Source of the DNA: Arthrobacter silviterrae
Lineage (GTDB): Bacteria > Actinomycetota > Actinomycetes > Actinomycetales > Micrococcaceae
Assembly (NCBI RefSeq): GCF_011045165.1
Contig: NZ_JAAKZI010000033.1
Span: 1-49,224, forward strand
Reading direction: 5' to 3'
DNA length: 49,224 nucleotides
Shown: positions 15,909 to 34,019 of the stretch, piece by piece
Position numbering within the stretch: the stretch's first letter is position 1
Layout of the letters: the number at the start of each line of letters is the position of its first letter
Translations under genes and position numbers: made by a program
The notes under the pieces: generated by a model
The model's input: only the letters and a program-made list of their open reading frames with translations
The model's database searches: none
Told to the model about the DNA's origin: nothing

Positions 15909-16019
15909 GGAAGGTCCTCACTGTAGGTGGCACTCACCTGCTGCCCTCGATCATATGCAGGGTGATTTTGGAGAGTAAAGCTGCTGGCGCGCATGTTGGC
16001 GGGTTTCGCTTAGCGCGGA

Positions 16020-16047
16020 CGACGGCGGCGCCCGGGTGCCGCCGTCG
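16020..16047. terminator. GC-rich hairpin after the AAA ATPase gene
   Basis: CGACGGCGGC (16020-16029) and GCCGCCGTCG (16038-16047) make a perfect 10-bp stem with an 8-nt loop. It is 36 bp beyond the stop of the minus-strand AAA/DUF4143 gene and has no U tract. It probably separates that gene from the osmoprotectant operon. Confidence 0.45.
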
Positions 16048-16082
16048 GGCGTGGGTTGGTGGTGGTTGGCTTGGGTGGAGCT

Positions 16083-17408
16083 TTAGGCGGTGAGCAGCGC
16101 GAGCGGGATTACAGCCACGCCGTCCTTGCGGCGATAGGCGTGGGTGCCGATATTGATGACGACGAGGTCGACTATTTGCTCGGGGAGTGATTGCTTGAGC
16201 CAGAGCAGATGGCGAACGTCGTTGTCATTGATTGAGGACTTGAGCTTCACCTCAAAGCCCACTGCTTCAGCGTGCCCGCGGTGGAGGATGAAGTCAATCT
16301 CGCGCCGCCCGTCATGGTCGCGGAAGTGGGAGAGCTGGGCATCGTTGGCCGCGGCATATGTCTGCAGGCTGAGGGCGACAAGTGCCTCAAAGAAGTCACC
16401 GAGCCGGGTCCGGACTCCGGTGTTGCTCGCAGGTCCGGTGGCGGACATCAGCTTGGCCTCGTTGAGGTTGAGCAGGCGCGCAGAGAGGGCCGGGTCGGCG
16501 AGAAAATGCTTCGGCGCGAGTGCGGCGCGCGCCAAAATCTTCTTGCTGGGCGACCAGGCATCGACTTGGTCCAGCAAGTAGAGGCTGCTAAGAACGTCAC
16601 GGTAGGCGATCGACGTTGTTTTGGCCGGTCCAGCCGGTTCACCCGGGTCCAGACTGGCCCCGATTTTTGCAAACGTGGTTGCGGAAGCTGTGGCCGAGGC
16701 GTAGCCCCGCAACCATCCCCGCAGAAGTTCCGGTCGCCGGATGCGGTGGCCCTGTTCGGTAAAATCGTGGGTGATGACGCGCTCGATGTAGTCATCCAGC
16801 CACACCCCACGGGCACGATCGTTCATCTGCCGGGCCTGCGGGAATCCAGAAGCGATAATTTCACGGACGTAGCCGCGCAAGTCGACATCGCTGGAGCCGG
16901 TGATGTTCGTGGCGCCTGGCTCGAGAAGATCGCGGACCCGGACGGTGGGGGTGGCCAAGCCGCGTTCCGCGATGGAGAGCGGGCGCATCCGGAATTTGAT
17001 GATTCGGCCAGCGCCGGAGTGCAGCCGGACACCGATGGGTGCGGCGCTTCCGGCCAGGATGAACCGTCCTCCGGTTGCGTCGTTGTCTACGAGCCGGCGG
17101 ATCCGGTCCCAAACCTCGGGGACGTTTTGCCACTCGTCGATGAGAACGGGGGTGTCCGCCCGGCCCAAATAGTTTGGGTCTGCCTGGATCAACTGCTGAA
17201 TTTCAGGGAGGTCCAGGTTGAGAATCGTTTTTGCCCGTTGTGCCCCTGTTGAGGTCTTCCCGATCGCGCGGGCCCCGTCAATGGAGATGGCGGCGAACGA
17301 AGGGAAGAGTTCATCGATTGAGTTGTCAACGATCCGTCTGCTGTAGCCCTGCACGCGACCAGTCTCCTCCGCTGCCATGTTCCCGCGCCCTTTGAATGCG
17401 GTCGCCAT
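16083..17408 (-). CDS. AAA ATPase with DUF4143 domain
   Basis: A 441-residue ATP-binding protein of the AAA_14/DUF4143 family. Walker A is GARAIGKT (45-52), Walker B is PVLIDEWQ (87-94) and a sensor-like FILAGS lies near 113. The DUF4143 part covers about 190-400. Near the C-terminus, EIDFIL followed by FEVKLKSS spaces an Asp and an ExK like a PD-(D/E)xK nuclease core, as noted for relatives. Function is unknown across the family; members are numerous and scattered, suggesting mobility. Codon use looks less GC-biased than in neighbouring genes. ATG 17408 lies only 5 bp from a 23-bp-period repeat array and has a weak ribosome site. Met11 (17378) has a better AAGGG upstream. Confidence 0.85.
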   Translation of the reverse strand: MATAFKGRGNMAAEETGRVQGYSRRIVDNSIDELFPSFAAISIDGARAIGKTSTGAQRAKTILNLDLPEIQQLIQADPNYLGRADTPVLIDEWQNVPEVWDRIRRLVDNDATGGRFILAGSAAPIGVRLHSGAGRIIKFRMRPLSIAERGLATPTVRVRDLLEPGATNITGSSDVDLRGYVREIIASGFPQARQMNDRARGVWLDDYIERVITHDFTEQGHRIRRPELLRGWLRGYASATASATTFAKIGASLDPGEPAGPAKTTSIAYRDVLSSLYLLDQVDAWSPSKKILARAALAPKHFLADPALSARLLNLNEAKLMSATGPASNTGVRTRLGDFFEALVALSLQTYAAANDAQLSHFRDHDGRREIDFILHRGHAEAVGFEVKLKSSINDNDVRHLLWLKQSLPEQIVDLVVINIGTHAYRRKDGVAVIPLALLTA

Positions 17409-17412
17409 ACTC

Positions 17413-17490
17413 TTTTGAGTGGATCTACACTACCATTTTGAGCATTCGTACGATACCTTTTTGAGTAAATCTACTAAACCTTTTTGAGCG
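17413..17490. repeat. Iteron-like array, exact 23-bp period, before the AAA/DUF4143 gene
   Basis: TTTTGAG occurs at 17413, 17436, 17459 and 17482, always exactly 23 bp apart. In the direction of the ATPase gene each full unit reads GGT-N3-GTA-N6-CTCAAAA: three full units plus a fourth partial one. The middle unit contains the short palindrome CGTACG. The array begins 5 bp from the ATPase ATG, so it occupies the promoter/leader. It is AT-rich against a GC-rich surround. Its distal units encode the last residues and stop of the HAD remnant. Regular single-period repeats of this size usually bind a protein cooperatively. Confidence 0.8.
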
Positions 17491-17758
17491 CACCATGGCT
17501 GGTTTCCGTCGCGTCCCCTGTGCTGGGCCAACTGCCTTGCGATGCCCGCACAGTCCAGGTGAACGCTGATTTGTCGGGTTTGGCGTGGCCCATCTGTTCT
17601 GAACTGAAGAACACGTCCGGCAGTGGTTCCAACCCGAGTCTCGCGATTTTCATTGATTGCTGTTCGTGATTGCCGTTGGTGATGACGCCGACGCGAAGTC
17701 CGAGGTCCCGCAGGCGCCGCAGGGTGGGCGCCGCGTCAGGAAAAGCGGTCCAGGCAAG
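17474..17758 (-). pseudogene. HAD-family hydrolase remnant
   Basis: The minus-strand frame contains about 95 residues typical of a HAD phosphatase core: FPDAAPTLRRLRDLGLRVGVITNG (motif II-like region), then FFSSEQMGHAKPDKSAF (motif III Lys) and GDATETSHGAL, resembling the GDxxxxD motif IV. The first nucleophile motif (DxDxT) is missing because the frame has no matching N-terminus before the GST-like gene. Between motif III and IV the sequence looks shifted. The 3' end is replaced by the 23-bp repeat array (final residues KKV then stop at 17474). I read this as a decayed gene cut by arrival of the ATPase unit. Confidence 0.65.
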
Positions 17759-17885
17759 ACGGCTCGAATTTCCACATCCCCAGCTTAGCCGTGGCGGCCA
17801 CTGATCCAGCCGGCCGCCGTCGTGCTTGGCTTGCGCGCGGGGCCGGGACCTGTCGGGTTTCCGGCGGCGGGCATAGGCTGGCTTC

Positions 17886-25854: not shown

Positions 25855-25878
25855 CCCCCGGCGGCACGGCACCCGGCA

Positions 25879-26016
25879 GATGAGGGAGCGTCGCTCGCAG
25901 GGCCGCGAAAGATGAGGGAGCGTCGCTCTCAGGGCCGCGAAAGATGAGGGAGCGTCGTTCTCAGGGCCGCGAAAGATGAGGGAGCGTCGTTCGCGGGGCC
26001 GCGAAAGGGAGCGTCT
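25879..26016. repeat. 32-bp tandem repeat array, four copies plus a fragment
   Basis: GATGAGGGAGCGTCG starts at 25879, 25911, 25943 and 25975, exactly 32 bp apart, and each unit ends AGGGCCGCGAAA or GGGGCCGCGAAA. A truncated fifth copy (GGGAGCGTC) follows. Units 1-2 carry the palindrome GAGCG-T-CGCTC. The last unit carries TTCGCGG-GG-CCGCGAA, a tight hairpin. The array lies between the convergent VOC and MarR genes. Confidence 0.88.
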
Positions 26017-33402: not shown

Positions 33403-34019
33403 AAGGAAAACATTACCGCCCGGGAATTTGCGTAGTAACTACTGATGTGCCGCGTGGATGCCGTCCCTAACGTAAGGGGTGGGAATGGATTTACGCGTTG
33501 CATGCTCAGGGGAAGGGGAGCGGCCGTGGCCAAAAAGGGAATTCCGGCGGGGCCTGAAAAGGCGTTCGGAGCAGCGGGACAGTTCACGGTGGGGGAGACG
33601 TTGGGCCACGGCAGACCATTGGGGGCCGCCGTGGCCAATCCCGCGGAGCCGGCCAAACAACCTCTTTTGCGCGCCGCACGGACCAGTACCCGGCGCCATG
33701 CCCAAGATGCTCGGCCGGGCCATTCCGGGCCGGACATTGCGGGTATCTGGCCCCGCAGGAATTGTTCCCCGCTGCACTGACCCGCTGAATTGGCCCGCTG
33801 TACTGACCCGCTGTACTGACCCGCGGTGCTTCCTTCTTTGGCCGCGAAGTGATATGGGCCAATTCGCCTTAAACGGCACGTGCCACTAGACTGGGTAGGC
33901 GCTAGGTGGCGCGGAGCGTGTGCAATTGCTCCGGTTTGCGGTGATTATCCTCCCGTGGGCCGGTAGTTAGGGGCTCAAGTTGCGTGCATTCGGGTATTCG
34001 CCGGACGGGCACCTTTTCC
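33403..34019. other. Non-coding gap without convincing gene
   Basis: Between the LuxR start and the rpmB leader (617 bp) several overlapping frames are open in both directions (for example 33479-33889 plus and 33399-33737 minus). None has a ribosome site with a plausible start, a domain or biased codon use. The interval contains a 13-bp tandem repeat (33771-33822) and presumably the LuxR promoter. The later part is AT-rich enough to hold a ribosomal-protein promoter. Confidence 0.6.
33771..33822. repeat. 13-bp tandem repeat, four copies
   Basis: GCTGCACTGACCC, GCTGAATTGGCCC, GCTGTACTGACCC and GCTGTACTGACCC follow each other exactly (33771, 33784, 33797, 33810). The last two are identical. 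It lies about 300 bp before rpmB. Confidence 0.85.

Follow-up and report, generated by a model that had tools for sequence, protein, structure and literature searches.

Group-specific tandem iterons upstream of DUF4143/PDC-S01 genes as probable private operators of a one-gene system

The DUF4143/PDC-S01 gene of Arthrobacter silviterrae is preceded by an array of exact 23-bp tandem units, and arrays with one of two group-specific periods stand upstream of many of its homologues. We consider it likely that gene and array make up a one-gene system with the array as its private operator, in which the DUF4143/PDC-S01 protein would bind its own 23-bp iterons and control its own promoter. The arrays, their two periods, their placement on the promoter (by prediction) and the link between unit and protein sequence are established here, as are, for the 23-bp group, the non-palindromic character of the units and their common orientation. 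We infer that the binder is this protein and that it acts by repression, and likewise the roles given below to ATP and the nuclease and the purpose in defence.

Results

An exact 23-bp array upstream of the DUF4143/PDC-S01 gene

The window, i.e. the whole stretch of 49,224 nucleotides that was analysed, carries TTTTGAG cores on its forward strand that start at 17413, 17436, 17459 and 17482. The spacing is exactly 23 bp, which confirms what had been noted in the sequence-only reading. On the minus strand the corresponding CTCAAAA cores begin at 17488, 17465, 17442 and 17419 (Table 1). Read towards the gene, the 23-bp units are CTCAAAAnGGTnnnGTAnnnnnn, or, written with the core, CTCAAAA(A/T)GGTnnnGTAnnnnnn. 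Searched with up to two mismatches, the pattern GGTNNNGTANNNNNNCTCAAAA has three matches in the window; each is exact and lies in the array. In 100 shuffles, the mean is 0.24 matches and the maximum 2; the k-unit score of the array (see below) is 11.3 versus a shuffle threshold of 5.2.

Table 1. Features of the DUF4143/PDC-S01 locus in window coordinates
Feature	Position	Strand	Basis
Tandem array, four CTCAAAA cores, 23-bp exact units	17413..17488	minus	sequence, pattern search, array score
Fifth, degenerate unit (TTCAAAG core), same 23-bp register	17374..17396	minus	lenient unit extension, sequence
Candidate -10 box TAGTGT in last full unit	17427..17432	minus	sequence; analogy to the -10 ladder seen in relatives
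DUF4143/PDC-S01 gene, probable GTG start 17354, 423 aa	16083..17354	minus	profiles, BLAST, starts of relatives
Shine-Dalgarno-like GGAGGAG before GTG 17354	17364..17370	minus	sequence
HAD hydrolase gene remnant	17544..17797	minus	profile, comparison with same-genus copy
Interval missing in the same-genus genomes G096 and G270 (L170, L171)	15982..17863		locus comparison
AAA+ ATPase domain, model residues 1-178	16821..17354	minus	Pfam, alignment, model
Winged helix-turn-helix (our reading), residues 208-286	16497..16733	minus	model secondary structure
PD-(D/E)XK nuclease-like domain, residues 317-400	16155..16406	minus	alignment, model

The array was found at this locus only. In the organism's own genome (4.29 Mb, 106 contigs), a two-unit pattern with up to three mismatches returned three overlapping matches, solely from this array, and its reversed control returned one match. 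A single unit with up to one mismatch found solely the three array units, while at two mismatches there were 10 further sites versus 31 for the reversed control. The sequence-only reading had named the same array at loci lacking a DUF4143 gene as evidence against its proposal; these searches of the window's genome found no other copy of the array, and the genome's only PF13635 match is the window gene.

Other tandem repeats in the window are about six copies of a 52-bp unit at 433-742, about four copies of a 32-bp unit at 25878-26007 (with 95% matches) and about 4.4 copies of the 13-bp unit CCCGCTGTACTGA at 33768-33824.

The gene start and the history of the locus

The ORF opens at an ATG at 17408 and encodes 441 aa, and it was from this ATG that the array had been said to end 5 bp away. 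The true start is probably the GTG at 17354, since the start codons of seven relatives of 81-87% identity (L006, L007, L035-L038, L040) correspond to residue 19 of the 441-aa ORF. Because the starts of these relatives fall at residue 19 and GGAGGAG stands just upstream, the leading 18 codons, a supposed N-terminal extension that holds the fifth, degenerate unit, are probably non-coding. With GTG 17354 as the start, the nearest upstream core is 58 bp away, and the 5-bp distance probably came from the wrong start codon. BLAST alignments with the 81-87% relatives start at residue 19 in five out of eight cases and at residues 5, 6 and 14 in the other three, so the GTG is to be taken as the probable start.

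A lost HAD gene end had been postulated, and a HAD hydrolase remnant is indeed present, which has an internal gap of 283 bp when compared with a same-genus copy; that the array replaced the end of this gene is plausible. In G096 and G270, which lack the interval around the gene (Table 1), a transporter operon runs almost straight into a GST gene. Among eight loci with about 80% protein identity or more, the common DNA has its upstream edge 50-143 bp before the start, i.e. at the array, and reaches at most 86 bp beyond the coding end. Several pairs among the eight, including most of those with the window, have DNA in common only from about the start codon, and one Cryobacterium pair has other segments in common too. 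The extent of this common DNA suggests that the array moves along with its gene. A GC-rich terminator-like sequence at 16014-16075 recurs at four places of the same-genus locus L167 and may be a dispersed intergenic repeat.

Upstream arrays are widespread among homologues

We scored 263 distinct homologues for which 200 bp or more of upstream sequence was available. The set combined P0001 relatives from the family sample, the top PF13635 matches in samples of three phyla, chosen multi-copy genomes, the loci of one contig scan and four plasmid or phage records. Tandem periods of 12-45 bp were evaluated by k-unit column scoring in segments anchored on the P-loop, and an array counted as significant above the 99.5th percentile of 2630 shuffles, a level that 14 of these shuffles exceeded. 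A significant upstream array was detected for 137 of the 263 genes, which are neither random nor independent and stand apart from archaeal members and many listed matches, all outside these counts. The period is 23 bp in 89 arrays, 33 bp in 20, 32 bp in 11, 22 bp in six, 24 bp in three and some other value in eight. Control regions gave far lower numbers: 6/247 at 400-740 bp further upstream and 6/159 upstream of other ORFs of the same loci, in both cases none at 22-24 or 32/33 bp; 3/263 in the gene body, one of them at 24 bp; and 6/255 downstream of the gene. Two of the downstream arrays have a 23-bp period; one adjoins a neighbouring homologue with its own array (L297) and the other is at the threshold.

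The arrays comprise 3-11 units, are AT-richer than their loci in 85 of 95 cases and vary in copy number. The longest, at L314 (G964:C1:2512204-2515301), has eleven 23-bp units by lenient extension. Repeats of 22-24 bp, which the sequence-only reading had suggested looking for upstream of homologues, are present in five phyla, with named records from Actinomycetota, Bacillota, Bacteroidota, Chlorobiota and Pseudomonadota.

Eight further named plasmid records, outside the 263, were scored separately. Significant 23-bp arrays were found in those of Collinsella aerofaciens, Bacteroides ovatus, Thioclava and Sulfitobacter, and 22-bp arrays in those of Pseudomonas mendocina (score 26.2, located 185-273 bp before the start) and Agrobacterium tumefaciens (5.3, barely above the threshold). 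The Actinomyces oris record has its best period at 23 bp with a sub-threshold score (4.8 versus 5.2), and k-unit scoring detected no array in that of Azotobacter chroococcum. There was no match in the viral contigs, and there were six matching records in the phage collection, all unannotated and from faecal samples. Three genomes of 1.1-1.7 Mb (G950, G955 and G980) are extreme expansions with 16-17 DUF4143 matches each.

Two periods follow two protein groups

On a FastTree protein tree, the arrays separate by period. The 22-24-bp arrays fall within one group (group 23) in 95 of 98 cases, and the 32/33-bp arrays fall within another (group B) in 31 of 31, both groups having been drawn with the array labels already known; branch support is modest for group 23 (0.607) and 0.949 for group B. 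Group 23 holds 123 genes, 95 of them with a significant 22-24-bp array and 28 without one; group B holds 57. The other 83 genes have seven significant arrays at any period. The best-scoring period lies at 22-24 bp in 107/123 group-23 genes versus 10/119 controls and at 31-34 bp in 40/57 group-B genes versus 5/54 controls, while in the other 83 genes the same comparison stays at background level. Mapped onto the tree, array class needs 35 Fitch changes, compared with a minimum of 92 in 500 shuffles, and when genes are clustered at 60%, an array of the class is seen in 54/75 clusters of group 23, 29/48 of group B and 2/67 of the others. Neither the sister group at 32/33 bp nor the array-less members, often with palindromes, had been foreseen from the window.

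Inverted repeats scoring at least 12 stand upstream of 20/83 of these other genes versus 0/74 control segments, and of 12/57 genes in group B (0/54 in controls) and 5/123 in group 23 (1/119). Several of those in the 83 other genes stand near the start codon; inverted repeats at a greater distance from it may be terminators. Near-perfect palindromes of 35-54 bp were observed upstream of genes that have neither 23- nor 32/33-bp arrays (L063, L085, L107, L207, L097 and others), and such long palindromes are a candidate third operator type of the family. Taken in this preliminary way, the survey suggests that much of the family has operators of its own, in three shapes.

The unit changes with the protein

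The sequence-only reading had envisaged spacers that co-vary with the protein subfamily. Co-variation is found, but it is the whole unit that varies greatly from gene to gene and not the spacer alone, as is illustrated by the units of Bacilli MAGs L045-L047 (CACAATCTTGGGAA), of a gene from the sample of the phylum of an Azoarcus MAG (TTTACAATTGGACGA) and of L017, a member of the window's family (CTGCTAAAGGTAG). Unit similarity rises from about 0.27 at below 30% protein identity to 0.79 at above 80% (rho 0.33, 3741 pairs, 87 genes). Paralogues within a genome are hardly closer in their units than genes from different genomes, with mean similarities of 0.34 (31 pairs) and 0.31 (4042 pairs), respectively.

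The units of group 23 are non-palindromic (symmetry 0.308 versus 0.330 in column shuffles), and those of group B are slightly more symmetric than shuffles (0.418 versus 0.369). In 25 group-23 representatives below 45% identity to one another, the units align in a single orientation, with a score matched by none of 40 random flips and none of 40 column permutations. When partial correlations were computed per protein segment in three identity ranges, the segment of the putative recognition helix ranked 3rd, 8th and 6th among 18, and the leading segments lay at the N-terminus, in the nuclease and in the wing; these ranks are unstable.

The arrays meet the predicted promoter

In GC-rich members of group 23 with an assigned start, a TANNNT motif stands 6 nt before the start in 21 of 63 genes, with echoes at 29 nt (nine genes) and 52 nt (seven genes), i.e. 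one and two units back, compared with a mean of 1.5 elsewhere. Such a layout is what one would expect of a leaderless promoter with a -10 box that continues the register of the array. Thirteen genes combine TANNNT at 6-7 nt with a 23-bp array that was scored; in eight of them the array ends at most 12 nt from the start, and in six a TANNNT one unit back is present. The window gene itself lacks a -10 box at the 6-nt position.

For 19 AT-rich genes, the distance between the array end and the start of the best predicted -35 element has a median of 0 bp, a prediction made without a control and with single genes ranging from -93 to +28 bp; nine of the 19 arrays extend beyond the -35 start. For arrays that lie upstream of the -35 element in these genes, activation possibly fits as well as repression. 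In the relatives as a group, promoter prediction thus places the operator over the promoter or next to it. As the array ends at promoter elements, a protein on the last unit should meet RNA polymerase, and it is from this position on the predicted promoter that we conclude autoregulation, most likely by repression. The self-recognising unit serving autoregulation that the sequence-only reading had put forward is accordingly the best reading of the arrays, their promoter placement and the co-variation of unit and protein.

An AAA+ ATPase with a putative winged helix and a nuclease-like domain

DUF4143 proteins had been described as having no known role, yet the family is the PADLOC phage-defence candidate PDC-S01: the window protein matches profile PDLC04790 with an E-value of 1.4e-74, in a DUF4143/PDC-S01 match that spans the whole protein, and so do three other group-23 proteins match this profile. 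In Pfam (E 0.001), the window protein matches solely PF13635 (DUF4143, 6.7e-21) and PF13173 (AAA_14, 1e-13), and no replication initiator domain was detected. Searches of NCBIfam and PHROGs up to E 0.01, and of PDB sequences up to E 1, returned no match.

We modelled the protein with AlphaFold2 on 69 sequences (pLDDT 89.7, pTM 0.92). In the AAA+ domain, G27, G32, K33, D73, E74, G102, S103 and R117 are invariant in these sequences. A long helix at residues 179-200 in the model is followed by the winged-helix-like region, a three-helix unit with two strands, whose third helix (residues 245-257) is the putative recognition helix; the blocks 231-240 and 271-280 of this region have pLDDT values of 63 and 66. 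In the nuclease-like domain, E352, D354 and K370 are invariant and E368 is conserved in at least 90% of the sequences. The ExK motif pointed out from the sequence alone holds up across the family in its bare form (121/123 proteins of group 23, 57/57 of group B and 71/83 of the remainder), while the strict nuclease motif is present in 85/123 group-23 proteins only. Foldseek ranks the archaeal AAA+ protein SSO1545 (2fna) first (E 1.3e-5), and its list also holds ORC2 and origin-bound Cdc6/Orc1 (entries 1w5t and 2qby), all at low TM-scores (0.24-0.39 by query length), along with other AAA+ and nuclease proteins.

Alternative explanations

A tandem repeat may arise by chance or slippage and have no function. 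The AT-richness of the arrays and their variable copy number are what slippage would produce, but two fixed periods sorted by protein group, low controls and placement at promoters make this explanation scarcely credible. Another rival is a separate host regulator that binds the array, the ATPase gene being merely its target; it gains from the fact that binding by the ATPase itself is what we infer. Against it, the window genome has no other copy of the unit at up to one mismatch, the unit follows the sequence of the ATPase, and inspection by eye of 12 records, 11 of them with annotation (all but L319), showed no constant partner, although integrase, DUF1403 and ScpB-like genes are common to two of them. 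Moreover, since the units of paralogues are about as unlike as those of different genomes, one such regulator per paralogue would be needed, and we regard this explanation as quite improbable.

The remaining two alternatives assign the array another job. Gene and array might form a single-gene transposable or homing unit, with the array as its end or target. This would suit the patchy distribution (38 of 295 family genomes have a match at E 1e-20), the multi-copy genomes with up to 17 matches, the confinement of DNA common to close relatives mainly to the gene with or without the array, the absence of 15982-17863 from two relatives and the distant locus L123, where a single exact unit some 180 bp beyond the stop codon leaves the gene between two copies. 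However, downstream arrays are at the control level, no matching second end was seen at the window locus, where the flanks have decayed, and the fit of the arrays to promoters is unexpected for the ends of an element. We consider this possibility very improbable, and the suggestion that the array serves maintenance or spread found no good support. Alternatively, the array could chiefly nucleate an assembly of the ATPase-nuclease, as a sensor or held inactive, with promoter control as a side effect. Arrays of 3-11 units exceed the needs of a simple operator, the nuclease-like residues are conserved as described above, and 23 and 33 bp, i.e. 2.2 and 3.1 turns at 10.5 bp per turn, could wind a protein chain round the DNA. 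Yet regulation alone accounts for the link to promoter elements, and only 12 unit-like sites were found outside arrays in the surveyed loci (127 arrays; 17 with fewer than nine invariant columns were skipped), so that we hold this to be unlikely. The private operator is the reading we retain.

Two familiar types of system were considered and rejected. A CRISPR array consists of identical repeats with unique spacers of about 30 bp and is accompanied by cas genes; head-to-tail units of 23 bp leave no space for such spacers. A two-gene toxin-antitoxin system would call for a conserved small partner gene, and none was seen by eye in the 11 annotated records.

Discussion

In the mechanism that we propose, the winged helix of the DUF4143/PDC-S01 protein would contact its own directional iterons, with one protomer per unit in a head-to-tail chain held together by the AAA+ domain. 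The bound assembly would control the promoter, most likely by repression, and the nucleotide state would decide whether it stays on the DNA or leaves. Gene-specific units would prevent cross-regulation with paralogues and incoming homologues, and the purpose of the circuit may be to keep a dangerous nuclease low until it is needed in defence.

Several elements of this scheme have precedents. Iteron-type plasmid Rep proteins are autoregulated, and their direct repeats adjoin their own gene and have a protein-specific unit sequence. The DUF4143 protein likewise has tandem directional repeats at its own gene; the iteron initiators differ in having a Rep domain where an AAA+ nuclease is found here, and the window contig is not known as a plasmid. 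Protein-specific iterons that adjoin the protein's own gene are also described for geminivirus Rep in the accessible part of the source (PMC12548392). The likeness of Orc1/Cdc6 and SSO1545 extends to AAA+ and winged helix at the low Foldseek TM-scores given above, and DUF4143 adds to this a PD-(D/E)XK domain and an array at its own promoter. In toxin-antitoxin systems and under defence-island regulators such as RptR and CapK/CapS, as far as the accessible accounts of them go, a harmful effector is controlled at its promoter; there the regulator has a separate gene, whereas here the effector gene stands alone.

PDC-S01 is described, in the accessible part of a 2026 survey, as an ATPase fused to the PD-(D/E)XK superfamily and as the fourth most common defence across prokaryotes, most PDCs still awaiting experimental validation (PMC12988326). 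The window protein is a member, with Walker A/B and PD-(D/E)XK residues intact, and its protection against phage is a prediction. In the accessible parts of the literature on DUF4143/COG1373/PDC-S01, a search that did not extend to the founding preprint, no upstream arrays or autoregulation and no worked-out PDC-S01 mechanism were found. While the PDC-S01 candidate and the iteron Reps were already known, iteron autoregulation as a family-wide rule in a nuclease-ATPase appears to be new.

A bolder extension, which we offer as speculation and consider rather doubtful, is that PDC-S01 systems form a large class of self-addressed one-protein immune modules. The ATPase-nuclease would polymerise on 23- or 32/33-bp iterons, depending on the group, and on palindromes in part of the rest; the address-bound assembly would be both repressor and poised sensor, to be freed by foreign DNA or phage activity. 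If this were true, the diversity of addresses would let many copies share one genome without interference.

The arrays supply a predicted DNA target for many copies of PDC-S01 and predict paralogues without cross-talk, and with such targets in hand the binding question of PDC-S01 becomes directly testable. With a period fixed by the protein group and a unit that drifts, they also provide a data set for the specificity of winged helices and the geometry of AAA+ assemblies.
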